The translations under genes and the position numbers were made by a program. A DNA stretch of 45,798 bases, from contig JAUWMI010000036.1 of assembly GCA_030613245.1 (NCBI GenBank), positions 1 to 45,798 on the forward strand, written 5' to 3'. The DNA comes from Candidatus Sumerlaeota bacterium. GTDB lineage: Bacteria; Sumerlaeota; Sumerlaeia; MWCT01; JAUWMI01. The notes below the pieces were generated by a model. That model worked only from the letters and a program-made list of their open reading frames with translations, was not told the DNA's origin and ran no database searches. Of this stretch, positions 7,956 to 39,830 are shown piece after piece (the first letter of the stretch is position 1; each line of letters starts with the position of its first letter).

Positions 7956-7981
7956 ACGCCGTAGCCGGGAGAAGAACGAGG

Positions 7982-17965: not shown

Positions 17966-18093
17966 GCTCGGGGAATTTCGGTCAGTTTGCATTCAGCCCA
18001 TAAAGTGAATGAAATTCATTGGCTTGACGACCTTGCCTAAGGCTAACAAGTGCTTTTTTGTGCTCGAAATATTCAAAGAGTTCTAAAGCTCAG
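17966..18093. repeat. Dispersed repeat, copy B
   Basis: This is the second copy of the repeat at 1-147, in the same orientation and about 80 percent identical by eye, lacking the 20-base insertion of copy A. It lies at the 3' end of the membrane-protein gene 18090-19877 and overlaps its stop codon. The central GACGACCTTGCCTAAGGCT block is identical in both copies. Confidence 0.75.
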
Positions 18094-19877
18094 CATAACT
18101 TGGGAGATTCTTCCGCGCGGCTCCGTGTTGGGTTTGAGTGTTTGCAAAGACGGATGCCTGCAAGCGTGGCAATGACTATGAGGGTGAGAAGTGATATCCA
18201 GGTGGCCACTGCCCTCACGGGGGTATGCTGGAATACAATCCGGCAATTGTATTGACCAGCAGGAGCGAAGAATTCAATCAAGCCATACGGCGATGAGGAA
18301 TGCGAAGCGACGCGCCTTCCGTTCAAATACACCTGCCATCCGGGAAACCAGAACGTCTGGCAGTGAATCAAGGCAGCTGTATGTACCCTTAGCCGATAGA
18401 TGTATTCCGCAGAACTGAGATAGAGTGGGATTGCGTCTATCGCTCCTTCGCGGGCGAGGAGTGCTTTGTGGGAAAGCGTTGGGGGTAGCTCGGCAATGCC
18501 GCGGGGCATGTAGTCGTCGCCCGTTGTATTGATAAAATGCTCCGGCCCGCCCTGTTGACTTGCCAGTGTGTTAAAGCCACAATACTCGTGGACGAGCGGC
18601 CTGTAGGCCTGAGGCCGACAATAGGGGGCGTATAGTAAAAAGACCAGGATGACTACTAGTGCGCAGATGCACCGCTCGAGCGCATCACTACGTGAAGCAA
18701 CGAGCGTGCTAACATGTCCTCCCAGGAACGAGCTAAGCAGCGCCACCAACACCAGCAGCCGCCAGGGAAACTGAATATAAGAAATCAGTGGCGCATGATC
18801 CCAGATTGCTTTAGCGCAGGGCAGCATGAGGAAAATGAGCGCAAGGAGTGAGACGAGAAAGAAGATCGTTGTGCCTATGTGTTGGGCTTGTTGGCGAAAA
18901 CGTTTGATCAGACAGACAAGGAGTACGATTCCGATGAAAGCCCAGTGGGCTAGGCCCAGTTGAAACGACATTCCATCCACCGGCCCCTTTTCGCTCAATC
19001 CGTAGCCCCAGCCTGGCACGATCAGCTGCCATGGATAGACAAAGTGGTTCGAGTAGTTGAGGTAGTCCTGCGTCAGCACAGTGATCTTTACGTATTTCAT
19101 CTCGGCGAGCGCTGGCAGCCAGTAAAACGCACTGAGCGCAAGGCCAATAGCGAAGCCACCACAAATTGCCACAGTGACGTGCCGCGATTCTCTGCGGAGA
19201 ATCAAAAACAAAGAAAACGCAACCAGTAGAACTGATGCTGCCAGCGCCGAGATGTTATGAGCCAGGATGAGCAGTCCGTATAAAACTGCGAACAGTAGAA
19301 CATTCTGGATTCGCGGCATCCGAGCCAAACGGGTTAATCCCCAGAACACAAACGGTAGGATTCCCATTGCAGTGAACTCTGCAATGTTGCCGCGCACGTA
19401 GATATTCACGATGTGGTATGGCGCCAGCAGGTACGCCGCCGCTGCAACTAACGCCCCGGCAGTTGAGAAATAGAGGCGCGCAAAGAGATACATACCCAGG
19501 CCGGCTAGCACTATGGCGAGTGCAAAAGCTAGTTTCACACATGCAGGGATGGAAAAACGAACCAGGCGAAAGAGTTCGCCGACATAAAACGCCAGCGGTG
19601 AGTAGTAGTTCAGAAACGGATATCCGTAACCGCCATTCAGATTGGGAAACCAGCGGGCATAGAGCTGGCCATGGTGCACTGCATCGTCCACCTCAGCAAG
19701 CCGTACAAGATTGTGGAGATATTCATGGGATTCAAAAAACTCTGGCCTGGTAAGAGGCAGCGCCAGGTAAATCGAGCAGATAAGAATCACTGCAACCGGG
19801 TAGTACTTATCCAAGAGGCTGAAAATTCGTTTCAGCGATCCGGTTCCTGATTCGGCGGCCTGCGATTGGCTGCGCAT
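18090..19877 (-). CDS. Polytopic membrane protein, PTPS-related / YfhO-like
   Basis: The 595 residues contain a dozen or so hydrophobic segments. It resembles the 6-pyruvoyl-tetrahydropterin-synthase-related membrane family and the YfhO/GT-C group: LALPLTRPEFFESHEYLHNL (a first periplasmic loop with acidic residues, as in GT-C enzymes), RWFPNLNGGYGYPFLNYYSP, APYHIVNIYVRGNIAEFTA, and a C-terminal periplasmic beta domain (FWFPGWQVYLNGRRV) before a last membrane segment. Such proteins are thought to move sugars from lipid carriers, but this has not been shown for the family. It is the last gene of the seven-gene minus-strand operon, 18 bases after its neighbour. Its stop lies in repeat copy B. 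Confidence 0.75.
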   Translation of the reverse strand: MRSQSQAAESGTGSLKRIFSLLDKYYPVAVILICSIYLALPLTRPEFFESHEYLHNLVRLAEVDDAVHHGQLYARWFPNLNGGYGYPFLNYYSPLAFYVGELFRLVRFSIPACVKLAFALAIVLAGLGMYLFARLYFSTAGALVAAAAYLLAPYHIVNIYVRGNIAEFTAMGILPFVFWGLTRLARMPRIQNVLLFAVLYGLLILAHNISALAASVLLVAFSLFLILRRESRHVTVAICGGFAIGLALSAFYWLPALAEMKYVKITVLTQDYLNYSNHFVYPWQLIVPGWGYGLSEKGPVDGMSFQLGLAHWAFIGIVLLVCLIKRFRQQAQHIGTTIFFLVSLLALIFLMLPCAKAIWDHAPLISYIQFPWRLLVLVALLSSFLGGHVSTLVASRSDALERCICALVVILVFLLYAPYCRPQAYRPLVHEYCGFNTLASQQGGPEHFINTTGDDYMPRGIAELPPTLSHKALLAREGAIDAIPLYLSSAEYIYRLRVHTAALIHCQTFWFPGWQVYLNGRRVASHSSSPYGLIEFFAPAGQYNCRIVFQHTPVRAVATWISLLTLIVIATLAGIRLCKHSNPTRSRAEESPKLC

Positions 19878-19895
19878 CAGTTCGATTGCTCTCCT

Positions 19896-20390
19896 TCACT
19901 TTTTCTGATACGTTTGGAGCAGAAACTCTTCCAAAGCGGAAAAGTCAGTAAAGATCCGTGTTGCACATCCAATGATCCATCCACTGACGTCTTGAAGCGG
20001 CACGCCGAGCACCAGGTAGACAGTAATTTTGTTCACATATGCCACTGTGAGTTCGCCGTGGGTGCCCCCACCGCGCATCACATGCTTATCCCAGTAGCAG
20101 ATTACATAGTCGGTCTGCTCCTGCAGAAATGTGATATCTCGGTCCAATATGCGGCGTACAACTCTCACAAAACGTTCAGTGTCCTCTACTTTCCATTCAC
20201 GGAAGAAGCGCTTCTCCTCGTCGGTGAGTACGTCGAACTCTTCGGTCGTGGGATCGAAAACCCGATGTCCGAGCGTGTGTGTGAGAAAGTCGCCTAATGT
20301 ATTGCGCCAGCCCTTTCCGCCATCAGGTGCATGTTCAATAGCGCCGGACAGGTAGGCGGTCGGCAGGTGCTCTGTATGTTGCTTTCGCAT
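19896..20390 (-). CDS. Nucleoside 2-deoxyribosyltransferase-like protein
   Basis: This 164-residue soluble protein has the layout of the nucleoside 2-deoxyribosyltransferase-like Rossmann family: N-terminal TAYLSGAIEHAPDGGKGWR, a middle Asp (DRDITFLQEQTDYVICYWD), and GGGTHGELTVAY, where Glu113 would be the catalytic nucleophile. Related small proteins include ones that hydrolyse or exchange nucleoside bases, but activity here is not established. It lies inside a glycan operon, 11 bases downstream of the Wzy/TPR gene and 18 bases upstream of the membrane-protein gene. That suggests a role tied to nucleotide or nucleotide-sugar turnover, though this is inference. No signal peptide is present. 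Confidence 0.62.
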   Translation of the reverse strand: MRKQHTEHLPTAYLSGAIEHAPDGGKGWRNTLGDFLTHTLGHRVFDPTTEEFDVLTDEEKRFFREWKVEDTERFVRVVRRILDRDITFLQEQTDYVICYWDKHVMRGGGTHGELTVAYVNKITVYLVLGVPLQDVSGWIIGCATRIFTDFSALEEFLLQTYQKK

Positions 20391-20401
20391 ATAGAGTGCC
20401 G

Positions 20402-22525
20402 TTACTCGCGGCTACGCAGCTCGCGGGCATTTGTTAGGATCGTGATCCTGCGCTCTAACGTTTCGGCGGCTTTCGTATTTCCTGATGCGCGACAACATGT
20501 CACCATCATCTTGAGAATCTCCAGGTTATCTGGCTCGTCACGACTGATCCGGGTAAGGATGCTGAGCGCGGCATCATACCTGTTCAGGTGCATGAGAGCG
20601 AGAGCATGATTACGGCGATTCTTACGTGCGACATCAGATTCGATTTCGCTTGCCCGCTCCAAATATTCAACGGCTTGTTCATACTGCCCAGCCGCCAGAT
20701 ATAAGTTGCCAAGATTGCTAAGCGCAGCTGCATTTACCGGATTAAGGCTAATGGCTGTGTGAAACGAGTCAACTGCGCGGGTATAGTCACCCAACTGCGC
20801 GTAGCACAAGCCGAGGCGATTATGAATTGGGGGAAAGTTCGGTTCCAATCTCAGCCAGTATTCATAATATTCACGCGCTTCATGAAAGTTTTCCATATTG
20901 CGATACGTGTCAGCCAGTAGCGAAATGGTATCAATGTTTTTCCGGTCATTGGCCAGTGCTCGTTGAAGAGACTTAAGGGCATCGGTGTAGTTGCGGCGGT
21001 CAAAGCTCTCTCGTGCCTGCTGATTGTGATAGCTCGCGACGTATGGCCGAAATGAAAGCGTTGAGTAGAGCGACATCACGCCCACCAGCCCGATACTGCC
21101 GAGGACAAGATACAGGGCTGATCTTTGCGGAACTCTATGTAAAGATGTTGTGCTTGCGAACCCTGCGGAGTGCGTATTTCGGGCAAGGCCAGCCAGCAGA
21201 CCCAGAGTTACCCAAAACAGCAGGGCTGATGCCGGGTTGTAGAGGTTAAAGTCGAAAAACGATTGAGTGAGCGTGGCACTGAGGCCGCTGATGAGACCAA
21301 CCTGCAGGATTGTTCGCTGCGAAGGCGAGCCGCGCTTGCTGTTGAGCTGGCGCAGCGAGTGAACTGCGACGAGTCCAACAATTATCAGGAAAGTTGCAAG
21401 TCCGAGCACTCCGGCCTCTGCCAGCAGGTTAAGGTAATCATTATGAGTACGCACCTGACGCGTGCGACCGAAAATATCCTGGTGGTGCCAGAGTTGCTCG
21501 CTCTTGTAGAGGGGAAAGACAAATTGATAGTTTCCAACACCGACGCCCAATATCGGATGATGCGCCACCATCCGCATCGTGTCGCGCCACGTGAGCAGAC
21601 GATAGATATTCGTCTCTTTGCGCGTAGTGAAGATCGAGACGACCCGCTCTATTGTTCTTCCGGAATCAAGAATGCAGTAGCTGGTCACAACCATAATGCT
21701 CCCCACGCACACGATCAAAAGCTTTTTGGCTTCTCTGCGCAAAAGATTGCGGAAATGCTGCACAGGCGAGCCAATTGCATATCGGGTATAGAGAATGGAG
21801 AACACCAGGGCACTCACAGCCAGGCCGACCAGCCCGCCCCGGCTTTGTGTCAGAAACAGATGCATTACTGCCGAGATCAAAGCAATAAAGAAGAACAGCC
21901 GTGCCCTCAGCCGGCGGGTAATAATTAGCGCACTCGCTAACAGAGGAATCGTTCCAATCAGGTATTGTGCCGTGAAATTTAGATTCCCCATGGTTGAGAC
22001 TGGAGCTTTCTGCAGCTCAAGAAGGACAACATCAATCCCATTATACTGCAGAAATCCGTACAGAGCGATAGCAATCACCGTGGCTGCGAGAAGATGAACG
22101 ATTGCGGTCGTGAACTCTGGGTGTACTGATTGGCGAAACGCCCAGAACGCCATTACCAGGCAGGCCAGGATCACTTCACAGTTCCATAACCCTGCGTGCA
22201 GATTCACTGCTGTTGTGAGAGAAAGGATATTAATGGCGGCATAAACAAGAAGGAGCAGCGGGAATATGCGGAGTTGTGCTGTTCTCTTTTTCACCCCGCA
22301 TGTGAGGACATAAACAAAGATGATCAGTAAGCAGAGCAGACCGAGAAATCCCAGCATTGCTGCCTTCACGTCCGTATATGCGGTGTACATCCGGGGCTGG
22401 AACACGAGCGGAATAACGAGCAGAGCGGTAAATCCGACGAGCGTAATCAGGCGGTCGAGTGTATGGGGAACAAGTGATGAGTGGGAGAAAAACAGCGAGG
22501 GATTGTGGGTGCTGACCTTTTTCAT
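20402..22525 (-). CDS. O-antigen ligase/polymerase (Wzy_C) with C-terminal TPR domain
   Basis: The first 480 or so of 707 residues form about a dozen membrane segments and contain the O-antigen ligase family stretch TQSRGGLVGLAVSALVFSIL and a large periplasmic loop ending in THNDYLNLLAEAGVLGLATF. Such enzymes join or polymerise lipid-linked glycans at the outer face of the inner membrane. Residues from about 500 on are tetratricopeptide repeats (NRLGLCYAQLGDYTRAVDSF, ALSNLGNLYLAAGQYEQAVE). The fusion is common in deep-branching bacteria, where function (glycan ligase or protein O-glycosylation) is unsettled. It sits between the anchored TPR gene and the deoxyribosyltransferase-like gene in the operon. 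Confidence 0.85.
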   Translation of the reverse strand: MKKVSTHNPSLFFSHSSLVPHTLDRLITLVGFTALLVIPLVFQPRMYTAYTDVKAAMLGFLGLLCLLIIFVYVLTCGVKKRTAQLRIFPLLLLVYAAINILSLTTAVNLHAGLWNCEVILACLVMAFWAFRQSVHPEFTTAIVHLLAATVIAIALYGFLQYNGIDVVLLELQKAPVSTMGNLNFTAQYLIGTIPLLASALIITRRLRARLFFFIALISAVMHLFLTQSRGGLVGLAVSALVFSILYTRYAIGSPVQHFRNLLRREAKKLLIVCVGSIMVVTSYCILDSGRTIERVVSIFTTRKETNIYRLLTWRDTMRMVAHHPILGVGVGNYQFVFPLYKSEQLWHHQDIFGRTRQVRTHNDYLNLLAEAGVLGLATFLIIVGLVAVHSLRQLNSKRGSPSQRTILQVGLISGLSATLTQSFFDFNLYNPASALLFWVTLGLLAGLARNTHSAGFASTTSLHRVPQRSALYLVLGSIGLVGVMSLYSTLSFRPYVASYHNQQARESFDRRNYTDALKSLQRALANDRKNIDTISLLADTYRNMENFHEAREYYEYWLRLEPNFPPIHNRLGLCYAQLGDYTRAVDSFHTAISLNPVNAAALSNLGNLYLAAGQYEQAVEYLERASEIESDVARKNRRNHALALMHLNRYDAALSILTRISRDEPDNLEILKMMVTCCRASGNTKAAETLERRITILTNARELRSRE

Positions 22526-22579
22526 AGTTCTTGTCTAAAACGTTGGCCGCAGACAAAACAGTGGGCCTGTCTGTACAGG

Positions 22580-23572
22580 CTATTTCAGATCTTGTTCTAT
22601 ATAGACGCGTTCTGGCGCTGCAGGAGCCAGCCGGAGATAGGTCTGGTAGTTCTCGCGCATTTGTTCTGTGTTGCCCAATGCGCGATATACTTCGCCGCGC
22701 AAGTAGTAATTGCGCGCCTCTTTGGGGTTACGCGTAATGGCCTCGTTCAGAAGTTCAAGAGCCCGCGAGTAGTCTTTTCTTAGATAGTGCAGCAAACCCA
22801 AGAACGCCACACCATCCGGTAAGAGTTGTCCGGCATCGTAGTGGCGTTTAAAAAACGCCAGTGCCCGGGTGTAATCTCCGGTCTTTTCGCCAAACTTTAT
22901 CAGTCGGGCGAAAGCAGCCTCATCTTCTGGATGTCGCAGGTAATCTGTAAGGTATTCGAATAGTGCGAGGGCGGAATTACCCAATTGTAAATAGTAATCA
23001 CCAAGCACCAGATGTAGATCAGATTGCGACGCTCCATAGCGCTGTGCCGTCTTCAGGGCCGTAATGGCCTGGGGAATGTTGCCCGCAACAGCGCAGGCCT
23101 TGGCAAATAGATACCAGTCGAGCGACGCCGTGTGCTTCGGTTTTGGATTCATAGCGAGCGATGAGAGAAAATATCGTACCGCCTCGTCGTATGCATGGCG
23201 CGAGTAGGCATTCTCTGCCAGAAGCCGCAACGGTGTTGCAGGATGTGCCATGGTTTGCAGGGCGCGAAGCAACTCGCGCTTGGCCTCGTCCAGGCGTCCT
23301 TGACGTTGATAAAACGCTCCGAGGAAGTAATGCGCATAGCCGTTGTGTGGATTGTATTTGATGGCCTTGAGCAATGCAGGTTCTGCTTCATAGGCTGCCG
23401 GGGTGTTGATCTTTAGCTTACTTTCGTAAGTATAGATTTCCGAGAGAAACTGTTTGATGCCCAGCAATGTAAGCTGTGAAAAGAGCACGACGCCCGCGAT
23501 GCAAATCCCGATCCGCAGCAGCAGGCGAGAGGTAAATTGACGGCTCTCTGCTTTTCCTCGTGCTTGCCTCAT
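22580..23572 (-). CDS. Membrane-anchored TPR protein
   Basis: The 330-residue protein has one N-terminal membrane segment (about residues 18-42, LLRIGICIAGVVLFSQLTLL) and then a run of tetratricopeptide repeats, for example NGYAHYFLGAFYQRQGRLDE, LHLVLGDYYLQLGNSALALF and ARNYYLRGEVYRALGNTEQM. TPR domains are protein-binding scaffolds; this one would face the periplasm. It lies between the Wzy/TPR gene (54 bases downstream) and a membrane-protein gene (14 bases upstream), so a scaffold for the glycan enzymes is a reasonable inference. Confidence 0.82.
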   Translation of the reverse strand: MRQARGKAESRQFTSRLLLRIGICIAGVVLFSQLTLLGIKQFLSEIYTYESKLKINTPAAYEAEPALLKAIKYNPHNGYAHYFLGAFYQRQGRLDEAKRELLRALQTMAHPATPLRLLAENAYSRHAYDEAVRYFLSSLAMNPKPKHTASLDWYLFAKACAVAGNIPQAITALKTAQRYGASQSDLHLVLGDYYLQLGNSALALFEYLTDYLRHPEDEAAFARLIKFGEKTGDYTRALAFFKRHYDAGQLLPDGVAFLGLLHYLRKDYSRALELLNEAITRNPKEARNYYLRGEVYRALGNTEQMRENYQTYLRLAPAAPERVYIEQDLK

Positions 23573-23586
23573 AAAGCCTTCGCTGG

Positions 23587-25590
23587 TTATCCCCTTTTTC
23601 CGGGAGTTTCTCTTACTCGACTGCTGGTCTCAATATCTCCAAAGCCTTCGAGCGGGACGTAGCCGTAAATGCGGATGTCCTGATCGTCGTAACAGATGGA
23701 CATCCGTAGGTACTGTCCGAGGAGCAACTGGCAAAAATCAAGCATTTTCTGTGTCACTGTGGATTTATGAATGATAAAATAGTCTACCTGGAGATAGGTC
23801 ATCTCTTCAAGCACGATTCCCTTGACATTGTCGCTGGGAATGGCGGGCAAAGGAGAGGACGAGTCCTCCGGGTTGAGCATTCGGAGTAAAAGGTAGTTCT
23901 TGTAAAACTCCTCCGTGCTCCTGTCGAGGCTCGTGTAAAATGCGTTAACCAGGCGATGGCGGTGAATGGTTTGCAGATAGAAAAACTTCGACGTATCGCC
24001 TCCAGCGATTTCCATAAAAACGGCCTCGCGAGGCACCTTTGCCAACTGATAATATACTGACGGAATGTTAATCCGAACCAGTGGATGGGGAATAGTCAGC
24101 CGCTCGGCAAAAAGGGTAAGGGCGATCACTATAGTCAGCGCAACGCACCGCGATCGGGTAAGGCGAAGAGTCTCGAACAGTCCTCTCAGATTACATCCGA
24201 GGAACACTGCCAAGGCGAAAAGGACAATGCCACTGAAGCGGGAGAAGACACGGATGCCGTCGGTAACAGGAAGCATGTGAAGGAGCACACCGGGCAGGAC
24301 AATCACATTGGACGACAAAAAGCCGACATGCAATATGCCATTCAGCTTGAGCACCGGGCCGAGCGACAGGATGAAAAACACGAGGCCTGTCACCAGCCAG
24401 AAGCGAGCGGTAGTGCGCCGGCGAAGAACCACCAGTGTGATGATCGTGAGGATCATAACTGTGCACCCAGGAAAATTCTGAAACTCTCCCGTTGTCTTCA
24501 GGCCGTATAAGTCATCTGTGAGAAAATGGAACTTATTATCCAGAAATCTCACTGCGGCAGTGGGTAGCAGGTAGCTCAGAGGATCAGCACCATAGTAAAT
24601 CTTGGCTGGCAGAATGCGCTCCTTAAATGGTGTTTCGTCGCCATATTGTTTCAGCAAAGGGACGGCGTAGGGGAGCACAGGGAGAATCATCAGGACAATT
24701 AGCAGGCTAAAGTTGACCAGGTGCTTGTTCAGGGACGGGTGCTGGCGCTGACTGTACAGAATTACGACGAGGTAAATCCCTATAGCTCCAAGAAACACTA
24801 ACACAGCAGTGATATCGAACGATAGAGCGATAAACAACAGGGCTGCCCCTACCAGGAAAAACGGCCGCAGCGGCTTTTCTCGCAGACGGAAGGCCTCGCT
24901 CCGTGCCTGAATAATTCGATACCCAAGATAGAGTGCCAAAAGGAACGAGAGACTCACCAGATGATACCAGGAGGTGAACAGGTTGGCCAAAAACGCCATG
25001 GCAGTGAAGATTGCATAGCGCCGATGCTTGGTCTTTAACATCCTGATGAATAGCCACAGTGTTAGTGGAATCCAGTGGGTGCTGAAGATGTGAAGATGAT
25101 ATAGCTGCGCAAAATGAAACGGGGAAAAGGAAAAAATACAGCCCGCCAGGAAGGCCCCATACACACCTCCGTCTAGCTCCCGCACAAGCAAGAACGTGAA
25201 AAATGCCGTTAGTGTCAGGATTGCAATCAAGTAGATATTATAGATTGTGATCAAAGAACAGAATTGCTGGAGAGGAATACTCAGCACGCAGTTGAACAGA
25301 CTCAGCGGTGTGAACAGAAGAGAATATCCCTTGGGATATGCCTGATAGTACGTATAAAGAGGGGTTGTATGGAGATCCAGAAGGGCGGTTTTCACCCACC
25401 AGAACCCCCAGAGGAAACATATGACGTCGCCCTCGGGCAGCGGCCCTGAGAATTTTTCTTGAATCATTGAGCTTGTTGGATGAAGCGGCAGAGGGAAAGT
25501 AGAAAGGCAGGCAAGGATAAGATAGATGAAGAGAAAGACAAGCAGGGAGGAAGCTGCGGTTTTGGAACGGCTATGGTGAGCTTTGGGCAC
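23587..25590 (-). CDS. Large polytopic membrane protein, GT-C-like
   Basis: The 667-residue protein has around 12 hydrophobic segments and a short cytoplasmic N terminus. After the first segment comes a long extracytoplasmic loop (SGPLPEGDVICFLWGFWWVK) of the kind in GT-C glycosyltransferases that hold acidic catalytic residues. The segment IFSFSPFHFAQLYHLHIFST resembles the HxxH-rich loops of the uncharacterised YfhO/DUF-type proteins in related phyla. The last 150 residues form a soluble domain. The start is a GTG at 25590 with GGTGGAAG just upstream. No family beyond 'GT-C-like' is secure. It is 47 bases downstream of relA and 14 upstream of the TPR gene. Confidence 0.65.
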   Translation of the reverse strand: MPKAHHSRSKTAASSLLVFLFIYLILACLSTFPLPLHPTSSMIQEKFSGPLPEGDVICFLWGFWWVKTALLDLHTTPLYTYYQAYPKGYSLLFTPLSLFNCVLSIPLQQFCSLITIYNIYLIAILTLTAFFTFLLVRELDGGVYGAFLAGCIFSFSPFHFAQLYHLHIFSTHWIPLTLWLFIRMLKTKHRRYAIFTAMAFLANLFTSWYHLVSLSFLLALYLGYRIIQARSEAFRLREKPLRPFFLVGAALLFIALSFDITAVLVFLGAIGIYLVVILYSQRQHPSLNKHLVNFSLLIVLMILPVLPYAVPLLKQYGDETPFKERILPAKIYYGADPLSYLLPTAAVRFLDNKFHFLTDDLYGLKTTGEFQNFPGCTVMILTIITLVVLRRRTTARFWLVTGLVFFILSLGPVLKLNGILHVGFLSSNVIVLPGVLLHMLPVTDGIRVFSRFSGIVLFALAVFLGCNLRGLFETLRLTRSRCVALTIVIALTLFAERLTIPHPLVRINIPSVYYQLAKVPREAVFMEIAGGDTSKFFYLQTIHRHRLVNAFYTSLDRSTEEFYKNYLLLRMLNPEDSSSPLPAIPSDNVKGIVLEEMTYLQVDYFIIHKSTVTQKMLDFCQLLLGQYLRMSICYDDQDIRIYGYVPLEGFGDIETSSRVRETPGKRG

Positions 25591-25637
25591 AGTCTTCCAC
25601 CCGAATTGCCAGCTGCCGCAGGATTTCAGCAGCCGGC

Positions 25638-27803: not shown

Positions 27804-27817
27804 TTCAATTGCCTTCC

Positions 27818-30043
27818 TTAAACCATCCACATTCGTTCTTCGTAATCTTTCTCCGGGATTTCCATTAGGATAGGGTTCCGGAGTGGACAGCGCTCGACCT
27901 CCTGCGCATCCCGCTGGACTGTGACCTGAAACACAAGGCGCTCACCTGGATGTGCATCTAGATCACGCATGTCAATGGCTATCTCGACGATGTGATCAAT
28001 CGCCAACCGAATAATCTGTTGCGACAAGACCCAGGCGCCGTCTTCGTTTTGCTCATAGCATTGAACCGCTGTAGTGCGGAGGGTAAACTCAAAGCGCCAG
28101 GGGCGCGGCTCAAATATCATAACCACGAGCGTAGTATGCTCTGCTTGTTCGGCTGTGAACAATACCGGATCTGGATCAATGCGAAGGTAGACCATGCGCG
28201 AGTCGAATCCATAATAAATACGCCGGATCAGCAGGCGTGTCTGGTGCATGCTGCCGCCTCCCAGAGCTGGGTCATAGCGCCCGGCAAGTAACCACTCGTA
28301 ATAATTCGTGTCACGACCATCGAGTGTGGGCATGATATACGCGCGTGGCGGCAGCAGGCGTCCCATCTCACCCTTGCTTTTGATCGATACGTTGAGATAA
28401 GCCGGTGGCTGCACGCCAAGGGCCGTATAGGCATTCATAAGATGGCTACGATACAGTAGGTCGAACTCCTCGTCAACGCCGGAGGAATGCTCGTCGCCAT
28501 ACCACCAGTTCCAATCGCTTCCCTCTGCAATATAAAGCATTTTCTTGGCACGGGTAATTTGCTCAGGTGCAAGTGTGCTGCCTGAGCGCTCAAGGTGGCG
28601 TTGAATGTCCTCGCGTGTATGCGCAAGGTACTCCCACGATTTGTTATGCTCGGGATGTCCGATCCAGATTGAGAAGTTCTGGTTGATCCACGAGCCAGCG
28701 TGCAATCGTTGCAGCTCCTGATCAATCTTGTAATCCGCCAGGAAGAGCGATGGCGTTGTGGGGCGTAGCGCTTCGGAATTGGAGAGCTGGCCGTAGAGAT
28801 GCTTGAGGAACTCAACCCCGTCGTCCTGATAGTGCTCCCAGCAATTTTCGCCATCCAGGATAATAGTGACGAGATGGGGGAGACCATCTTGTTGCAACGT
28901 GGCTTGAATGTGCAAGAGGCGATTGATAAGATCGTGCGCTGCATCTTCGGGCTTCCAGTGCGCGTATTGAAATCCGATTAGATCGGAGAGGAACTGATCA
29001 CGAAACAGGATAGCGACGCTGCTCTGGTCTTTTCGAAATCGATACGGCCGATACAACAAGCGCATTGAGGCAGCGTCCAGATGTCCTTTGCGGTCTCGTT
29101 TCAGCGTTGCATTATGTAGCGATCGAGCCAGGTTGTTTTGGTCTGTAGCAATCCAGGTGATACCAGCATCGGCGAACAGTGGCACAATTTCTTCGCACAC
29201 TGCACCTTCTGCGGGCCACATCCCTCGGGGTGGCTGGCCGAAGAGATGGGTATATGACTCCACTGCCATCTCCACTTGTGCTTGGGCATCCTCGGGATAG
29301 TGGAAGCGCCTGGTTGGCATTTGGGACTGTGGGGAGCTGCGCAGCGCAATCTCGGTGTCATAAATCAGCGGAAGAATTGGATGATAGTAGGGAGTCGTGC
29401 TGATCTCAATCTGGCCATTGTCCTGAAGGCGACGATATGTTGGGAGAATCTGCTTCAGCAAATTCTGTTGGCGTGCAAGAAGCTCGAGTTTCTCCGCCTC
29501 GCTGTATTGACGGCCCTTCTGCACGAGCTCTGTGAGGAACGAATCCTTTTGTCGCAGATACGGATCTATCCAGGTCAGGTTGAACCAGACCTGGAGATCG
29601 CGGAAGTCTTCTATTGACATGTGTCTCAGCACGCGGCGCAATTCATCAGCCGATTTTGTCAATCCCCGGCTCATGCAGAGTTCGTAGTATCGGGAGTGAG
29701 GCTTAATCATGGTTTCGTAATTTGCATTGAAGAATCTCATGAGCAGGGTAATCTTGTCCTCTGTTGTCAGGGCATCTGCTGGCTTGCGTGACAGGCGCAG
29801 GCATTCGTCCTCAGCGTCGTGTTCAACGTAGTCCTCTAGCTGCTCAAGCAAACTGGGTACCAGATTGAAAGTGAGATGAACCCCCGGGAATTCGTCGAGC
29901 AACAGTGCCATGTCCAGATAGTCTTTCACTCCGTGAAGCCGAACCCACGGCATCTTGTACTCCCCGCTGGCAAGATCTTTGTAGTAAGGTTGGTGCATAT
30001 GCCAGACAAGGGCGACGTAAAGTGGTACTTTTTGTTCGTTCAT
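27818..30043 (-). CDS. Glycoside hydrolase family 57 protein
   Basis: The GH57 family contains alpha-amylases, amylopullulanases, branching enzymes and 4-alpha-glucanotransferases acting on alpha-glucans with retention. The 741-residue protein shows family region 1 at the N terminus (HMHQP, residues 15-19), region 3 with RGMWPAEGAV (nucleophile Glu279) and region 4 with ILDGENCWEHY (acid/base Asp397). A C-terminal beta-rich domain of about 250 residues follows. No signal peptide is present, so a cytoplasmic role in glycogen or another stored glucan is likely. It begins the minus-strand operon; relA starts 15 bases after its stop. Which reaction it catalyses cannot be decided from sequence alone. 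Confidence 0.9.
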   Translation of the reverse strand: MNEQKVPLYVALVWHMHQPYYKDLASGEYKMPWVRLHGVKDYLDMALLLDEFPGVHLTFNLVPSLLEQLEDYVEHDAEDECLRLSRKPADALTTEDKITLLMRFFNANYETMIKPHSRYYELCMSRGLTKSADELRRVLRHMSIEDFRDLQVWFNLTWIDPYLRQKDSFLTELVQKGRQYSEAEKLELLARQQNLLKQILPTYRRLQDNGQIEISTTPYYHPILPLIYDTEIALRSSPQSQMPTRRFHYPEDAQAQVEMAVESYTHLFGQPPRGMWPAEGAVCEEIVPLFADAGITWIATDQNNLARSLHNATLKRDRKGHLDAASMRLLYRPYRFRKDQSSVAILFRDQFLSDLIGFQYAHWKPEDAAHDLINRLLHIQATLQQDGLPHLVTIILDGENCWEHYQDDGVEFLKHLYGQLSNSEALRPTTPSLFLADYKIDQELQRLHAGSWINQNFSIWIGHPEHNKSWEYLAHTREDIQRHLERSGSTLAPEQITRAKKMLYIAEGSDWNWWYGDEHSSGVDEEFDLLYRSHLMNAYTALGVQPPAYLNVSIKSKGEMGRLLPPRAYIMPTLDGRDTNYYEWLLAGRYDPALGGGSMHQTRLLIRRIYYGFDSRMVYLRIDPDPVLFTAEQAEHTTLVVMIFEPRPWRFEFTLRTTAVQCYEQNEDGAWVLSQQIIRLAIDHIVEIAIDMRDLDAHPGERLVFQVTVQRDAQEVERCPLRNPILMEIPEKDYEERMWMV

Positions 30044-30496
30044 GTTCTAATCGCCAGTTTTCTAGTTAGGCAATGTTTTTTCGTTGAAATCTGCCGAACT
30101 GTTCTGCACACTATCTCCATTGTGTCCGACTACAGGGAAGATGACATCTGGGATTTTGTCACAGGAGATCATCTCGTCTGTGGTACGGTTTTTCCACAGT
30201 GGGAAGTGCGTTGGAATTGCTTAACGCGTGGTGTCCAGCGAATCCGTCTGTATTTTGGCCACATTCCCAATTCGCAACAGGTAGCCCGGATTTCGCAGGA
30301 ATGCCAAGCCTATATGCCTTTATGCTCTAAATAATGTATGGCCTATTTTCGACGCAAAAAAAATCGTACGCGTTCGTAGTACTCCTTTGGGTAAAAGATA
30401 TCTATATTTTGCCCCTTTCCAGGACGCTGTGTAAAGAAGAAATTCGGATGGACAAGTCCCCAGACGGCTATGCTAGAGCCTAAGGAGGGCGAGCAT
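30044..30496. other. Divergent intergenic region between the two glycan operons
   Basis: This 453-base region should hold the promoters of both operons. I see no strong sigma-70 pair; the best -10-like site on the plus strand is TATATT in the T/A-rich stretch around 30410. A 70-codon plus-strand frame (GTG at 30122 to the stop at 30334, beginning VSDYREDDIWDFVTGD) reads like protein but lacks a ribosome site and a recognisable family. I leave it uncalled. A good ribosome site, AAGGAGG (30482-30488), precedes the next gene. Confidence 0.4.
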
Positions 30497-31903
30497 ATGG
30501 CACATTCGGTGGCACCGGGTAGTCCGTCACCTATTCAGATTGAGGTTGCCTCCTCTTTACTGCCAGAGACCCGAGGGCTGGTTCTTCACCTGGACCCGAA
30601 GATGCAGTCTGAGCAGTTGGAGTCGGCTGTGGAGCGCGGTGCTCAAGCCGGGTTTAATCTGCTTTTGGTGCGCGTGTTCTCGCGTGGTCTCACGGCCTAC
30701 CCAAGTGAGGTAATGGCGAGCTATCGCTTGCCAAGACAAAATCGCAAGTTTTGGGGATGGGATCCGTTAGCCAGGTGCGTTGATGTGGCGCAGAGCCACG
30801 GTATGCTTGTCTACGTAGTGATAGAGGCGCTCTGCGCAGCCGATCGTATTCGTCGTCGGCCGAAGCCGATTCTAAGCAGGTATCCGCGGTGGGGTATGCG
30901 CAATAAGTCCGGGGCCTTTGTTCCTGTGGGCAATATGGACAAGTTGGTATTTTTGTGTCCGTTCAACCCTGCTGTTCGCCGATTTATTGGCGACCTGGTG
31001 TGCGAGCTGGTAGAGGGATATCCAGTTTCTGGGGTGGTGTTTGACTTTGTTCCGTTCCCCACGCTTGGGGACGATCCAAAAACTGCATTTTGCTTCTGCC
31101 CAAGCTGTAAGAGCCAGGTAGCCTCGGATCTCACGATTGACCTGGAGACGTTGGACTTTGCCACTCAAAGCCAGGATGTCACAAAGTGGACTAGCTGGAA
31201 GCGGCAGCGTTTCTCCAAAACGATGGCGTACTGGCGCATGCGTATCCGCAAGGTGCGCAGAAATATTCCGCTCATAATTCAGGTGTCGAATTCAGCGCTT
31301 CTCCGGCAGGCAGAAGTCAAGGATGGCTGGAATTATGCCACGCTCCTTGAGGAAGGTTGCTTTATGGAGGTGCTGGCACAGGGCTACTCGCCGGATGTTG
31401 CAAAGCTACAGGCTGAGCTGGATCAAGACGTCAAGCAGCTACCGGAAAACATAACATTGCTCCCTCTGCTTCCGGCTTCAAGCACTCATACCTTGTGCCA
31501 AGTCGCCGAGCATATTCGCCGGCTCGCGATGCCCGGAGCAGTCTACGATCTGGCCGAGCCCTTGAACCAGGAGCAGAGCGCTGAGATCGAGGAACGGATA
31601 TTTAGGAAGCCTGCGTTTGTGCCTGAGGTCAGCCCGCTTGCGGGTGCAGAAAATCTGATTGGCCAGCTCATCAAACTGGTTCCGAATAACGTGAATCTCC
31701 ACAGTTTCTTTAAGGATCTGCTAAAGTTTCTCAACATGGAGGGGCAGAATCTTGGTGTTGAACAGTTGCATCAGATAATTGAAAACCTTCAGGGAATCGA
31801 AATCCAGATACGCGCAGGGAAAATTCAGATCGGAGATGCTGCTGAGCCGGTGTTGCGCAACCTCAGCCTCGCACGCCGGATGTTGCGGCTCCTCACTCTC
31901 TAG
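30497..31903 (+). CDS. GHL10-like putative glycosyl hydrolase-related protein
   Basis: The 468-residue protein resembles the GHL10 (DUF4015/YngK) type of TIM-barrel proteins, which are predicted sugar-binding or glycosidase-like enzymes. Evidence is RGLVLHLDPKMQSEQLESAV, GFNLLLVRVFSRGLTAYPSE, FWGWDPLARCVDVAQSHGM, and SGVVFDFVPFP, an extended acidic strand like those that carry catalytic Asp in these folds. FCFCPSC suggests a metal site. The C-terminal 120 residues look helical. Activity is unproven. I choose the ATG at 30497 because AAGGAGG lies eight bases upstream; an earlier in-frame ATG at 30470 has no such site. It opens the plus-strand operon. Confidence 0.65.
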   Translation: MAHSVAPGSPSPIQIEVASSLLPETRGLVLHLDPKMQSEQLESAVERGAQAGFNLLLVRVFSRGLTAYPSEVMASYRLPRQNRKFWGWDPLARCVDVAQSHGMLVYVVIEALCAADRIRRRPKPILSRYPRWGMRNKSGAFVPVGNMDKLVFLCPFNPAVRRFIGDLVCELVEGYPVSGVVFDFVPFPTLGDDPKTAFCFCPSCKSQVASDLTIDLETLDFATQSQDVTKWTSWKRQRFSKTMAYWRMRIRKVRRNIPLIIQVSNSALLRQAEVKDGWNYATLLEEGCFMEVLAQGYSPDVAKLQAELDQDVKQLPENITLLPLLPASSTHTLCQVAEHIRRLAMPGAVYDLAEPLNQEQSAEIEERIFRKPAFVPEVSPLAGAENLIGQLIKLVPNNVNLHSFFKDLLKFLNMEGQNLGVEQLHQIIENLQGIEIQIRAGKIQIGDAAEPVLRNLSLARRMLRLLTL

Positions 31904-31950
31904 CTGCGCATCAGATTCACCCGGATGATAGGCTGTGGCCGTCACTGCGG

Positions 31951-34419
31951 ATGATGAAACGGGATGCAGAAGGCGGGGCTCACAAGGAGAGGGCGGTCCG
32001 ACCCTTGCAGAGTTCTTATCGCACCACAACGCTTATTCTTCTTGGCTATGCGGTCTCTTGTGCCTTCATCTTTCGCACTGTTCTGAACAATACCTGTCTG
32101 CTCTATGGCACTGATACTGTAACTCATGACTATTTGACTGCGCTGTATGGCTGGGAGGCCATCCGGTTGTGGGGCACCTTGCCTCTCTGGCACCCGCATC
32201 TTTTCGGTGGCATCCCCTTTATCGGGTCTTTTGCATTCTGTCCGTTCTATCCAACCCAGCTTTTGTATCTTTTTATTCCCCTTCCGCTCGCATTTAACCT
32301 GCAGTATTGCGTGAATGCCTTCCTGGCCGCATGCTTCATGTATTTCTTTTGCCGCACCATGGGTCTTGCGCGGCTCTTCGCCTTCTTTGCTGGATTGATG
32401 TTCCTGCTCAGTGGCCATTTTATCACGCTAACCTATCCCGGTCACCTGCAAAAGTTTCAAGCAATCGTCTGGATGCCTGCAGTGTTCGGGTTTTTGAAGC
32501 AAGGAATGGAGCGACGTCGGTTTGGCAATTTTGTGCTGGCAGGCTTTGCCTTGGGAATGCAGCTATTGGCCGGCCACGTTCAGATTGCGTTCTATACAGT
32601 GCTGGTAGGGCTGGTGTTCTGCATCTGGCTAGCTACGGGCGAAAGGACTGGCCACACGAAGGTAAAAAATCTGGGTTTTGCTGTCACTGGCCTTGTCCTT
32701 ATGGCCGTTGTCGCAGGAGCATGGAGTGGTGTGCAAATGCTTCCCGGATATGAGATGGCCAGTCGATCCAATCGCGCCACGGGAGTCAGCTACCTCGACG
32801 CCACACAAAGCTCGTATCCGCCATGGGAGATGATCGAAACTTTGCTGCCGCGCTTTACCGGAGATTCCCTTGCTGGGACATCTCGCCCCTATTGGGGTGC
32901 ATGGGGTGAACGACTGGTAAGCGACTATGCAGGAATGGGGGTATGGGTGCTTGCAGTGTGTGCGTTGGTTATGAGCCGGCGTCGTGAGCGTTTTCTTTTC
33001 GCCGGGCTCTTCTGCGTAGGGGCCTTGCTGGCAATGGGAAGCCATTCACCCCTGTACTGGATGGCGTACCATTGGTTTCCCGGGATCGATCGCTTCCGTT
33101 CGCCTGCTGCAATCATGATAGTCATGACCATTTCGCTGACCTACTTGAGCGGGGTGGGTCTTGAAGAGATACTTGGCAAAAGCTGGTCGCACAAGCGTCG
33201 GACATGGTTCTTACGGATAGGCCTGGGGCTGGCCTTCGCTACATTGTTAACCCTTGGACTGATCTGGCTGATCATAGAGCCACGCTTCGAGCAGGGCCTG
33301 AAGGCTGCATCCCCGGCCACAATGCAACTTTTTTATCAGCGCGGGCTTGACGTGTTGTGGAGTGCAAAACATAGTCTTGCCTTTGCCTGTGCTGTGTTTG
33401 CTCTGCTCTTTCTCTATCAGTACCTTTCCGGCAAGGGAGCGACGGCGCGGCCAAAGTCGCTGGCCCGGGTAATGGTGCTAGGCGGGTTTGTGCTGGCTTG
33501 CAGTCTTGATCTTTACTTGAACGATCGAAATTTTATCCGACCAATGAAGGTAGAGCCGTTTTACCGCTATCTCTATCATACCTGGAGCGATGATTATCTG
33601 GAGGAGCAAGACCCTCCGGTCCGAATGCTTGACCTCGAAAATCTCCTCAAAAATCGCATGATCGTTCGCCACATCTCCACGCTACACGGGTACCACCCAA
33701 TTGCCTATCAGAAGTACTTTAATCTCGTGGGTGCGCTCGGATTCACCAAACCTGCTTTTAACCAGCTCTTCTTTTTACGATTTCTGATTGCGCCGGAGGG
33801 AAACGCTGTTGACAATCACTACCGCCCTGTGTTCACAAGAGAGCATCAGACGCTCTATATGTACAGCCTATCTGGCGCGCTGCCACAGCCTGAACACGCG
33901 GCTAGCGCTGGCGATCTCTCGTACGCATACTTCCCACAGGAGATTAGATATCTCGAAACCGAGGAGGAGATTCTTGCGAAGATGAAGCAGGATTCGTTTA
34001 GCCCGTACAAGACGTCGTATGCTCTTGGCCGGCCGCGCGTGGTGAGTAATAAAAGCGTCAGCGACGGAACATATCGAAGCCGCGTGATTCTATATGAAGA
34101 TAACCGGGTGGAGATAGAAACGCACTGTCCCGCGCCGAGCTGGTGCATAACAGCAGATTATGCGGCACCGGGATGGCAAGCATGGCTGAACGGCTCAGGG
34201 CGATTACCCATAGTAACGGCAAATTACTTTTTCCGCATGGTGCACCTGCCGGCTGGCACACACCGTGTCGTTTTCGTCTATCAGCCATTCTCGTTTCGAT
34301 TGGGATTGTATCTGACAGGACTTGTGCTGGCCGGAGGTATTGCGCTTGCAATTGGTGCGCGGCGGCGCAGTCGTGCGTACCCGTTGTATTCTCCAAAGAA
34401 CCAGAATTTCCAGGATTAG
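31951..34419 (+). CDS. YfhO-family polytopic membrane protein
   Basis: The 822-residue protein has about 12 membrane segments and a large C-terminal periplasmic region that ends with a final membrane helix. YfhO-type proteins are thought to glycosylate teichoic acids or other surface glycans. Recognisable stretches are LPLWHPHLFGGIPFIGSFAF, SGHFITLTYPGHLQKFQAIV and, near the end, APGWQAWLNGSGR, which is the same type of C-terminal beta domain as in the 595-residue protein (FWFPGWQVYLNG). It begins 48 bases after the GHL10-like gene and ends seven bases before the next. Confidence 0.82.
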   Translation: MMKRDAEGGAHKERAVRPLQSSYRTTTLILLGYAVSCAFIFRTVLNNTCLLYGTDTVTHDYLTALYGWEAIRLWGTLPLWHPHLFGGIPFIGSFAFCPFYPTQLLYLFIPLPLAFNLQYCVNAFLAACFMYFFCRTMGLARLFAFFAGLMFLLSGHFITLTYPGHLQKFQAIVWMPAVFGFLKQGMERRRFGNFVLAGFALGMQLLAGHVQIAFYTVLVGLVFCIWLATGERTGHTKVKNLGFAVTGLVLMAVVAGAWSGVQMLPGYEMASRSNRATGVSYLDATQSSYPPWEMIETLLPRFTGDSLAGTSRPYWGAWGERLVSDYAGMGVWVLAVCALVMSRRRERFLFAGLFCVGALLAMGSHSPLYWMAYHWFPGIDRFRSPAAIMIVMTISLTYLSGVGLEEILGKSWSHKRRTWFLRIGLGLAFATLLTLGLIWLIIEPRFEQGLKAASPATMQLFYQRGLDVLWSAKHSLAFACAVFALLFLYQYLSGKGATARPKSLARVMVLGGFVLACSLDLYLNDRNFIRPMKVEPFYRYLYHTWSDDYLEEQDPPVRMLDLENLLKNRMIVRHISTLHGYHPIAYQKYFNLVGALGFTKPAFNQLFFLRFLIAPEGNAVDNHYRPVFTREHQTLYMYSLSGALPQPEHAASAGDLSYAYFPQEIRYLETEEEILAKMKQDSFSPYKTSYALGRPRVVSNKSVSDGTYRSRVILYEDNRVEIETHCPAPSWCITADYAAPGWQAWLNGSGRLPIVTANYFFRMVHLPAGTHRVVFVYQPFSFRLGLYLTGLVLAGGIALAIGARRRSRAYPLYSPKNQNFQD

Positions 34420-34425
34420 CGCGTG

Positions 34426-36066
34426 ATGGGGACTGAACTCAGTGAGAAGAAGATTGTTCTTGTGGTGGTGTTTTTGTGTCTTATTGGGATGGTATTTTCC
34501 CTTGGATTCACACCAGTTCGCTCGAGCAACGATGTCTGGTGGCAGCTCAAGAGCGGGAAGTACATTGTTCAACATCGCGGGTTGCCCCACTACGATGTTT
34601 TCACGTTTACGGGGGAGAACATTGAGTGGCACAATCACGAGTGGTTGGCACAGGTTATCATGTACGGGGCGTATGCGCTTGGTGATGCCAGCGAGTTTGG
34701 GGGGCTGCGCTGCGTTATCACGCTCAAGACCCTGGTGCTGATTGCAACGTTCCTTTTGCTGTGTTGGTTTATTTACATGCGAAGCCAGAGCTGGCTAGTT
34801 GCTGTGCTGTTTGCACTGATTGCTGCGGCTGTCTCAAAACGAACCATCTACCCCCGCCCACCCGTTTTTAGCTACCTCCTGTTCGCCGGTTACCTTTACG
34901 TGTTATGGGGCTACTGGAGTGGCAGACTAAGCTGGCGGTGGCTTATCGCGCTGCCTCTCCTGATGGTGCTCTGGGTAAATCTCCATGGTTTCTTCGTGCT
35001 CGGGATTTTCCTGCTGGGGGTCTACCTTGTGGCAAGCGTGCTGCAGAATTTCTATACATGTAACATCCTGCACGAGCCGCTTGATGCGCAGCAGATACGC
35101 AGAACACGCACTCTCGCCCTGCTGTTTGGTCTCTGTATCCTCGCTTCGCTGATCAATCCGTACGGCTATAAGCTTTACATGCTTGGTTGGCGCTTTATGG
35201 GGAATAAAGATCTTGTGCGGATTATTCCGGAGTTGCGGTCCCCGGATTTCTTCTTCACCAGGGGCTACGAGTTTATGATTGCCTTTCTGCTCCTCGGCTT
35301 TATGGTGGTGAAGCGGAAGATTCCCAGTCTCGCGGAATTGTTCATCATAGCAATCTTTTTCCACCTTTCAATTCAGCACGTTCGGTACTTGCCCCTGTTT
35401 GCGCTCGCAGCGGCCCCGCTCTGTGGGTGGCTGGCACGCGAACTGCTCCAGGAAGTCCCTCGCCAATTTCACCGACCCACGCACTATGCCCTGTTGGGTG
35501 CAGTGCTCATTTTTAGCGCTTATTCCGTTGCCCATCACCGCGAGGGTGAGAGCTACCTTGAGCGCAATCTCCAGCTTGCCCGGGGCATGGAATTTCGCCA
35601 GGAGAACTATCCGGTAAAGGTGTGCGACTTCATTATTGCGAACAACTTTTCCGGCAGGATGTACAATCAGATCAACTACGCAGGATACCTGATTTGGCGT
35701 CTCAGCCCGGAGCATAACAAAGTTTTTACTGACAGCCGCTATGATGTCTTTGGCGACAAGTTCGTCTGGGATGAGCAGCGCATTCAACTGGGGATTGATC
35801 GGAGTGCACCTGCTTATAGCTGGGACGAGCTGCTTGATTTGAAGTACGGGATCAATTTTATCGTAATCTCCCGCGATGCTCCGCTGAATGTTCGCCTTAA
35901 AGATCATCTAGACTGGCGTCTGGTATTCTGGTGGATTTCCTTGCGCTCTGCCAGCTCGTTGGCGGGCTACAATATCTACGTGCGAAACACTCCTGAAAAC
36001 CAGGCGCTCATTGCACGCTGCGAGAACTCTTTTCGCCTTTTCTCTGTGCGCGATCGCTATGACTGA
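34426..36066 (+). CDS. Polytopic membrane protein, unassigned (GT-C-like)
   Basis: I do not recognise a named family. The 546-residue protein has around ten hydrophobic segments. An N-terminal extracytoplasmic loop runs from SNDVWWQLKSGKYIVQHRGL to FTGENIEWHNHEWLAQ, with acidic and His residues in the place where GT-C enzymes keep the catalytic site. The last 150 residues are soluble (KVFTDSRYDVFGDKFVWDEQ). I start at the ATG at 34426 (a GTG at 34423 is in frame too). Its stop overlaps the start of the next gene by eight bases, so the two are translationally coupled. Confidence 0.65.
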   Translation: MGTELSEKKIVLVVVFLCLIGMVFSLGFTPVRSSNDVWWQLKSGKYIVQHRGLPHYDVFTFTGENIEWHNHEWLAQVIMYGAYALGDASEFGGLRCVITLKTLVLIATFLLLCWFIYMRSQSWLVAVLFALIAAAVSKRTIYPRPPVFSYLLFAGYLYVLWGYWSGRLSWRWLIALPLLMVLWVNLHGFFVLGIFLLGVYLVASVLQNFYTCNILHEPLDAQQIRRTRTLALLFGLCILASLINPYGYKLYMLGWRFMGNKDLVRIIPELRSPDFFFTRGYEFMIAFLLLGFMVVKRKIPSLAELFIIAIFFHLSIQHVRYLPLFALAAAPLCGWLARELLQEVPRQFHRPTHYALLGAVLIFSAYSVAHHREGESYLERNLQLARGMEFRQENYPVKVCDFIIANNFSGRMYNQINYAGYLIWRLSPEHNKVFTDSRYDVFGDKFVWDEQRIQLGIDRSAPAYSWDELLDLKYGINFIVISRDAPLNVRLKDHLDWRLVFWWISLRSASSLAGYNIYVRNTPENQALIARCENSFRLFSVRDRYD

Positions 36067-37384
36067 CCGAAATCAATCCAGCAGGGTTATGCCTAACGCC
36101 AATCACCGTCTGCTTTTGGGACGACGCTGTGCGCTATGGTTGGTCTGCGTACTTGCTGCCTTCCTTTATTTCAAACAGAATGTCTACACGGCGTTCTACC
36201 ACGCACATAACAACGACTTCCACCACCTTTATCTTGGTGCGAAGTTACTGAGCAAGGGTGGGAATCCGTATGACGTGGACCAACTGCTTGCAGCAATGCG
36301 GTTGCACGGCATCACGCGCCTGAACCCATACGTATACCTGCCCTTTACCGGCCTCGTGCTCGCTCCGCTGACCTTTCTGTCGTTGTCCGGTGCATCGCAC
36401 GTTTGGTTTGTGGTGAATCATCTGTTTTTATTCGCCAGTTTCATTATACTAATTCATCTTCTCCCAATGCGTTTGCGCATGGAGCACGTGGCATTTGCGT
36501 TGCTGGTTGCCGCCTTTTCAGTACCGTTTTATCGAACGCTCACCGCCGGCCAGCTTAATGCGGCACTACTTCTGCTCTATTGCCTGATCTGGTGGGCGTC
36601 CGAACGCAAGAGACCGATCCTGACGGGCAGCCTGCTCGCAGCTGCAACGTTATTCAAGATCAGTCCGGGCATTATGTTTCTCTATTTTGCATGGAAGCGG
36701 GATTGGAGGGCCGTGGGGTGGGGCGTGGTAGTGCTTGTTGTTTTACTGGTTGCCTCTGTGGTGGCAGTTGGACCGCAAGTGCATCTCGATTTTATACCAC
36801 TCCTTCAAGAGATGTCCTACGGCCAGTCAACATGGGCAGAGTTTGGCCGCACCTACTACGTTGATCCCGCTAATCAGTCATTTAATTCGTTGTTTAATCA
36901 CCTCTTTGCTGAGAATCCCTATACCACAGTGCTGGTGCCTCTCGGGCCATACTTCGCAAACGGGCTGAGCGTGGTTGCTGCCGCTCTTTTTGCGGCGCTT
37001 GTGCTGGTAGTAACGTGGCCACGCCGCACTGCAACGCCGGTGTATTCTCCTCAAGGTTCTCTGCTCCACTACAGCCTCTTCATCTTTCTGTCGCTCTTGA
37101 TCCCCAGTCTACTGTGGGATCATTATCTCGTCGTTCTGTTTCTTCCGATTTTTGCTATATATGCGCAGCTGTTTGGGACTAAACGCATTGTGCCGATTCT
37201 ACTTTTTGTCATTAGCGTTGCGCTGATCTGTGTCTCGATAAACTTTGAACACCCTGCGTTTCGAAGCGGACTCGGTATCTTTCTGATGTCAACAAAGCTC
37301 CTCGCCATGCTTATCTTATTTTTCCTTACGCTGAGTTTTTCACTTCCCAAGCGTACACGCTTTATCCCTGCCGGACCAGCGTGA
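36059..37384 (+). CDS. GT87-like (DUF2029) polytopic membrane glycosyltransferase
   Basis: The 441-residue protein resembles the DUF2029/GT87 family of polyprenol-phosphate-sugar dependent mannosyltransferases. The segment NDFHHLYLGAKLLSKGGNPYD contains the first-loop acidic residue, and YLPFTGLVLAPLTFL and TAGQLNAALLLLYCLIW are typical. About nine or ten membrane segments follow. The open frame reaches back to 36011, but the ATG at 36059, overlapping the upstream stop by eight bases, is where similarity begins. It is the last gene of the plus-strand operon. Confidence 0.72.
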   Translation: MTDRNQSSRVMPNANHRLLLGRRCALWLVCVLAAFLYFKQNVYTAFYHAHNNDFHHLYLGAKLLSKGGNPYDVDQLLAAMRLHGITRLNPYVYLPFTGLVLAPLTFLSLSGASHVWFVVNHLFLFASFIILIHLLPMRLRMEHVAFALLVAAFSVPFYRTLTAGQLNAALLLLYCLIWWASERKRPILTGSLLAAATLFKISPGIMFLYFAWKRDWRAVGWGVVVLVVLLVASVVAVGPQVHLDFIPLLQEMSYGQSTWAEFGRTYYVDPANQSFNSLFNHLFAENPYTTVLVPLGPYFANGLSVVAAALFAALVLVVTWPRRTATPVYSPQGSLLHYSLFIFLSLLIPSLLWDHYLVVLFLPIFAIYAQLFGTKRIVPILLFVISVALICVSINFEHPAFRSGLGIFLMSTKLLAMLILFFLTLSFSLPKRTRFIPAGPA

Positions 37385-39506: not shown

Positions 39507-39533
39507 GCCAATATGTAAAAATGCTTTTGGTTC

Positions 39534-39565
39534 GCCAGTGAGCTGCATAGCTCACTGGCTTTTTT
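39534..39565 (+). terminator. Rho-independent terminator after the S8 protease gene
   Basis: An 11-bp perfect stem GCCAGTGAGCT/AGCTCACTGGC (39534-39544 and 39549-39559) with a GCAT loop is followed directly by six T residues. It ends the protease transcript 28 bases after the stop codon. Confidence 0.92.
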
Positions 39566-39656
39566 ACTATCCATGTGTTGATTTTGTATCTAAACCATAT
39601 CCAGTAAAGACATAACGCATTCACTTTTAACGAATTAGAGAGCTGAAAAAAAAGTA

Positions 39657-39684: not shown

Positions 39685-39830
39685 TGCCAGTAGATTTGTT
39701 TTTCACTAATACCCACAAATGGCATGTTGTCATTCGTTTAGTTCCATTTAATTTCATTGCGGCATGGACTATGTAGAGGGCATGAAAGGCTAAGTTCAGA
39801 ACGTACAAAACCAAACGGAGGTAGGGTAGT

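Follow-up and report, generated by a model that had tools for sequence, protein, structure and literature searches.

The locus examined here raises the question of whether two divergent operons dominated by membrane proteins constitute one dedicated glycan system. It lies in a window of 45,798 nucleotides, contig C46 of a 4.29-Mb draft genome of a Candidatus Sumerlaeota bacterium, a MAG whose closest named relatives are Candidatus Sumerlaeota (BRC1) MAGs. A first-pass annotation had proposed that the locus may build, trim and anchor a glycan, or glycosylate exported proteins. We favour, with moderate confidence, a composite neighbourhood of known enzyme types, in which conserved modules are joined to an apparently lineage-specific tail and the GT-C enzymes would decorate an envelope polymer.

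Gene layout and protein families

All eleven open reading frames were recovered in an ORF check, with the coordinates, strands and tight junctions first described (Table 1). The junctions measure 18, 11, 54, 14, 47 and -13 bases on the minus strand and 47, 3 and -56 bases on the plus strand, and the divergent gap between the operons is 426 bases. Against the composite reading, the minus-strand junctions are tight enough to suggest that in this genome rel shares a transcript with the GT-C and Wzy genes. The GHL10 gene probably starts at the ATG at 30497, with AAGGAGGG just upstream, rather than at 30470, and the true start of the GT87 gene is probably near 36059. Scanning the divergent region for promoters and terminators gave no signal stronger than shuffled sequence.

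Table 1. Features of the locus, in window coordinates
Feature	Position	Strand	Basis
PTPS-related membrane protein, YfhO-like superfamily, 595 aa	18090..19877	-	Pfam PF10131 5e-12
Soluble protein, 164 aa, dRT-like	19896..20390	-	
Wzy_C (O-antigen ligase/polymerase type) membrane protein with C-terminal TPR (Wzy-TPR)	20402..22525	-	Pfam PF04932 7e-20 and TPR
TPR protein, N-terminally membrane-anchored	22580..23572	-	Pfam TPR; N-terminal hydrophobic segment
U667, predicted GT-C glycosyltransferase, distant YfhO relative	23587..25590	-	AF2 and Foldseek
Rel/SpoT long-form (p)ppGpp synthetase-hydrolase	25638..27830	-	TIGR00691 5e-233
GH57 cytoplasmic alpha-glucan-type enzyme	27818..30043	-	Pfam 5e-68
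Divergent intergenic region, promoters presumed	30044..30496		Sequence and start-site reading
GHL10-like protein, YfhO-linked cytoplasmic subfamily, degenerate motif	30497..31903	+	Pfam 2.6e-18
YfhO-family GT-C glycosyltransferase	31951..34419	+	Pfam YfhO 7.6e-8
U547, predicted GT-C glycosyltransferase	34423..36066	+	AF2 model, Foldseek; family absent from Pfam/NCBIfam
GT87-type GT-C mannosyltransferase-like protein	36011..37384	+	Pfam 4e-25

Pfam assigns the GH57, Rel/SpoT, Wzy_C plus TPR, TPR, PTPS-related, GHL10, YfhO and GT87 proteins; neither Pfam nor NCBIfam offers a family for the 164-, 547- and 667-residue proteins. The 164-residue protein has no signal or membrane segment, and its initial label as a nucleoside 2-deoxyribosyltransferase went unconfirmed: searches of Pfam, NCBIfam, the PDB and plasmids returned no deoxyribosyltransferase support. 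Its matches are the unknown PHROG phrog_19940 (5e-5) and one archaeal virus record, BK063667.1 (35% identity).

Membrane proteins of predicted GT-C type

The 547- and 667-residue membrane proteins, here termed U547 and U667, were modelled with AF2 and compared with the PDB by Foldseek. In the U547 model (pLDDT 91.6) several helices build a membrane core and an external loop follows TM1; the model matches the C-mannosyltransferase DPY19, STT3, PglB and ArnT at 1e-8 to 1e-4. Residues Asp37 and Asp58 are invariant in an alignment of U547 with 16 homologs (n = 17), and Asp37 lies just past the first membrane helix. U547 has a conserved acidic residue in the first external loop, as expected of a GT-C enzyme, with a putative catalytic role. 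The U667 model is weaker (pLDDT 76.7) and matches STT3, PglB and DPY19; its profile reaches YfhO proteins at about 1e-29, and Asp55 is conserved in at least 90% of its alignment. PDB sequence searches with both profiles returned nothing useful, and the placement came from fold alone. The fold of U547 matches DPY19, STT3/PglB and ArnT and that of U667 matches DPY19, STT3 and PglB, whereas sequence identity to these enzymes is only about 10-13%.

By predicted fold, both proteins are GT-C enzymes, which places two unannotated membrane protein families in that superfamily. The models indicate that the initial GT-C prediction was correct and, if anything, conservative: because U667 and U547 both model as GT-C, the locus holds six GT-C/Wzy-type proteins rather than the five lipid-linked-sugar enzymes counted at first. 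Homologs of U547 occur in 37 of 39 relatives. The family, recognisable by NDxWWxLKxG...WHNHEWL, is common in Sumerlaeota, Omnitrophota, Acidobacteria and Chloroflexota, yet is without a model in Pfam or NCBIfam; in Chloroflexota its members are often tandem duplicates.

The YfhO protein scores 31.6 bits against a curated cut-off of 28.5, with the best stretch confined to the C-terminal part. Its orthologous group spans the class and carries an invariant Asp55 shortly after the first membrane segment. The PTPS-related protein is a probable GT-C glycosyltransferase.

Several of the membrane enzymes here probably add cell-surface sugars. We propose that YfhO, U547, GT87, U667 and the PTPS-related protein would use polyprenyl-phosphate sugars at the outer face of the inner membrane, with an envelope polymer, of LPS/O-antigen type or protein-linked, as the acceptor, and that Wzy-TPR would serve in polymerisation or ligation.

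Gene order in relatives

Gene order was compared through genome-wide searches of 39 relatives and 80 fetched regions; many of these relatives are fragmented MAGs, in which the absence of linkage is partly unscored. On this comparison the locus falls apart into what seems to be one addition and three old modules, namely GHL10-YfhO (frequently divergent from rel), rel-GH57 and U547-GT87. GHL10 adjoins YfhO in 13 relatives. Seven of these belong to the 15 relatives used in the count, whose GHL10 a genome-wide sequence search had detected; the remaining six emerged from a profile search beside YfhO and are not independent. The rel gene faces GHL10-YfhO directly, without GH57, in G010, G018, G028 and G037. 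GH57 adjoins rel in 6 of the 11 relatives that have both, and U547 adjoins GT87, away from YfhO, in 13 of the 33 with both of these genes (linkage denominators may be off by one, as the YfhO position of one genome is not listed). In most of the class, U547 and GT87 form a pair of their own. Only in this order are U547 and YfhO neighbours (G002, G003 and G004), and there the core, with GH57 divergent from GHL10-YfhO-U547, is kept in three other genera. Judged from gene order, the arrangement of rel facing GHL10-YfhO is the oldest core within the class; GH57 accompanies rel in several lineages, and this order places U547, here with GT87, behind YfhO.

The genes for U667, the TPR protein, Wzy-TPR, the dRT-like protein and the PTPS-related protein seem to have been added downstream of rel in this lineage specifically. 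Three of these five were searched (U667, Wzy-TPR and PTPS-related), and in none of the 39 relatives does any of them come within 6 kb of a core gene. Wzy-TPR orthologs occur in all four other members of the order, but unlinked to the genes of this locus. Homologs of the PTPS-related protein were found in 17 relatives (E ≤ 1e-10), none linked to the other genes, and on this comparison the position of the gene is lineage-specific. Operon linkage in relatives, which the first-pass annotation had set as a check, held for the core in three other genera and failed for U667, Wzy-TPR and the PTPS-related gene.

These results make it unlikely that both operons serve one dedicated system for building, trimming and anchoring a surface glycan or for glycosylating exported proteins. 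Such a system would account for six GT-C/Wzy proteins within 19 kb, for the tight junctions and for core linkage across the order. It sits poorly with the unlinked distal genes, with a rel gene that is a single-copy housekeeping gene (the sole TIGR00691 match in the genome), with the independence of U547-GT87 and with GH57 and GHL10 proteins devoid of export signals; moreover, a Pfam search identified no initiating phosphoglycosyltransferase or flippase in the locus.

A rival explanation, that Sumerlaeota abound in GT-C genes to the point where several co-occur by chance beside functionally unlinked neighbours, we regard as similarly improbable. Most genomes do hold several YfhO-like matches (8 match rows here, up to 17), and conserved partners are lacking for those distal minus-strand genes that were searched. 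However, adjacency of GHL10-YfhO, U547-GT87, GH57-rel and rel-YfhO recurs across families at 25-50% identity, whereas by our estimate (12 kb out of 4 Mb in each genome) roughly 0.1 genome would be expected per pair, far below what is observed. Chance is therefore largely refuted for these four pairs, but may account for the distal minus-strand genes. The YfhO tree broadly tracks taxonomy. Copies linked to GHL10 are confined to its main group and do not occur in the distant paralog groups, a pattern consistent with an old GHL10-YfhO pairing that was lost several times. That the pairing arose by chance from the many YfhO paralogs was rejected, as the GHL10-linked copies all fall in the main orthologous group.

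The position of rel also invites a regulatory reading, in which rel, the cytoplasmic GH57 and GHL10-YfhO would make up a conserved bidirectional unit through which (p)ppGpp adjusts both carbohydrate storage and the glycosylation of the envelope. We consider this very unlikely. In its favour, rel adjoins GH57 in six relatives and lies within 6 kb of YfhO in seven, divergently where gene calls are clear; most relatives nevertheless do not display the arrangement, the scan of the divergent region found no regulatory element, and adjacency to rel is by itself no proof of regulation. In one MAG of the order (G003, contig C159; region L034, 13754-15922), an in-frame TAG interrupts rel, which may reflect either a mistake of the assembly or a true break.

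Possible cytoplasmic partners, donor sugars and the envelope

Neither Rel nor the GH57 protein has a signal or membrane segment. GH57 matches PDB 9jlq at 4e-85 and keeps the catalytic motifs WPxE and LDGENCWE, and the catalytic Glu/Asp motifs are conserved across 10 aligned sequences, as befits a member of the family. It resembles the 9jlq/8zyi group in these motifs and over about 530 aligned residues, but differs in an unmatched C-terminal stretch of about 200 residues and in its linkage to rel. If it acts as its family does, its substrate would be a cytoplasmic alpha-glucan. A literature search for the PDB codes 8ZYI, 9JLQ and 9IHT found no paper, and one combining GH57, glycogen and the stringent response returned a single paper, on gut commensals.

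The GHL10-like protein departs further from its family. At the active-site motif it reads GVVFDFVPFP, compared with GFQLDYIRYP in a paralog from the same genome, and it has no N-terminal hydrophobic segment, whereas the paralog does. The same holds more widely: YfhO-type GHL10s of Sumerlaeota reach a highest 15-residue hydrophobic mean of 1.65, against 2.4-3.1 in exported forms. In the YfhO-linked members examined, varied sequences replace the canonical DYxRYP and about six have lost the motif Asp, while the own-genome paralog and the Omnitrophota GHL10s keep an LDYxRYP-like motif. The locus protein has neither the canonical active-site motif nor the export signal expected of a GHL10 glycoside hydrolase. 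YfhO-type GHL10s are unlikely to be conserved hydrolases, and from their predicted cytoplasmic location they could not trim an exported glycan via the standard export route. The notion that the locus would "build, trim and anchor" is weakened accordingly, with both GH57 and the YfhO-linked GHL10 predicted to be cytoplasmic and the latter degenerate in its motif, and trimming and anchoring are left without support. No link emerged between the locus and the LVIVD, S8 or CBM-like proteins once suggested as substrates.

A weak profile match (4.6e-6) relates the locus GHL10 to Cwp19 of Clostridioides difficile (PDB 5oq2), whose gene also lies within a glycopolymer locus (PMC5765458); unlike Cwp19, it has no signal peptide. 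In three Omnitrophota species (L143, L144 and L145), a canonical GHL10 with the motif LDYVRYP is encoded immediately upstream of a U547 homolog, so that pairing of GHL10 with GT-C enzymes is seen more than once. In L143 and L145 this GHL10 has an N-terminal hydrophobic segment and lies 5 bases from the U547 homolog. Within the present genome, a glycosidase-like gene again lies close to YfhO: a second YfhO paralog occurs near a DUF4015/GHL6-type gene (L089, contig C47, 46000-64000; positions 7672-12069).

What is conserved, then, is that YfhO is paired with a GHL10 relative lacking a signal; in several lineages the pair sits next to rel. A literature search found no paper joining YfhO with GHL10 or YfhO with Sumerlaeota, and the available part of one review of multi-component systems (PMC8035078) describes no such cytoplasmic partner. 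Should this pairing prove functional, it would give GT-C enzymes a cytoplasmic partner absent from the literature found. The protein may be YfhO's non-canonical partner, perhaps a subunit with a sugar-binding or regulatory role. A bolder proposal, which we think rather improbable, is that these proteins are cytoplasmic pseudo-glycosidases of a new class. At the inner face they would bind a sugar nucleotide or a lipid-linked sugar and control a GT-C enzyme, in a unit divergent from rel that would tie envelope glycosylation directly to the stringent response.

In the systems that it reviews, CsbB/GtcA/YfhO and GtrA/GtrB/Gtr, YfhO is the GT-C component. The present locus likewise has a YfhO-family GT-C, and the genome encodes GT2 enzymes (34 matches). 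The locus differs in lacking a GT-A lipid-phosphate-sugar synthase, its GT2 genes lying elsewhere, and the genome differs in that a search with PF04138 (GtrA) gave no match, as in 34 of 40 genomes; the locus therefore does not strictly qualify as a CsbB/GtcA/YfhO system. Most of this uncultured phylum thus appears to do without the usual GtrA flippase, though its GT-C enzymes are numerous. MATE, SMR and Wzx flippases serve similar systems (PMC11127046, PMC8035078). Most likely, the GT-C enzymes decorate an envelope glycan with sugars from lipid-linked donors that are made in trans; we infer that GT2 enzymes from other parts of the genome would supply these donors, which would be flipped by a route other than GtrA. 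A U667 paralog in this genome lies directly downstream of a GT2 gene (contig C59, 36000-55000, region L077; the two genes at positions 8217-11299), an arrangement resembling the pairing of donor synthase and GT-C in the reviewed systems (PMC8035078). By analogy, this pair supports the use of lipid-phosphate sugars by the U667 family.

Upstream of the locus, at 4351-9689 of the window, are genes for GT2, GT9, GT4, a HAD phosphatase (GmhB-like), a cytidylyltransferase (HldE C-terminal-like) and a second GT9. The initial statement that no nucleotide-sugar GT is present consequently stands within the two operons and fails for the window as a whole. This cluster is probably for heptose/LPS inner-core synthesis, which suggests a diderm envelope with a possible acceptor. 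On the other side of the locus, 37536-42887 encodes a subtilisin-like S8 protein; the next genes on that strand are the glycolytic ones for GAPDH, TIM and PFK.
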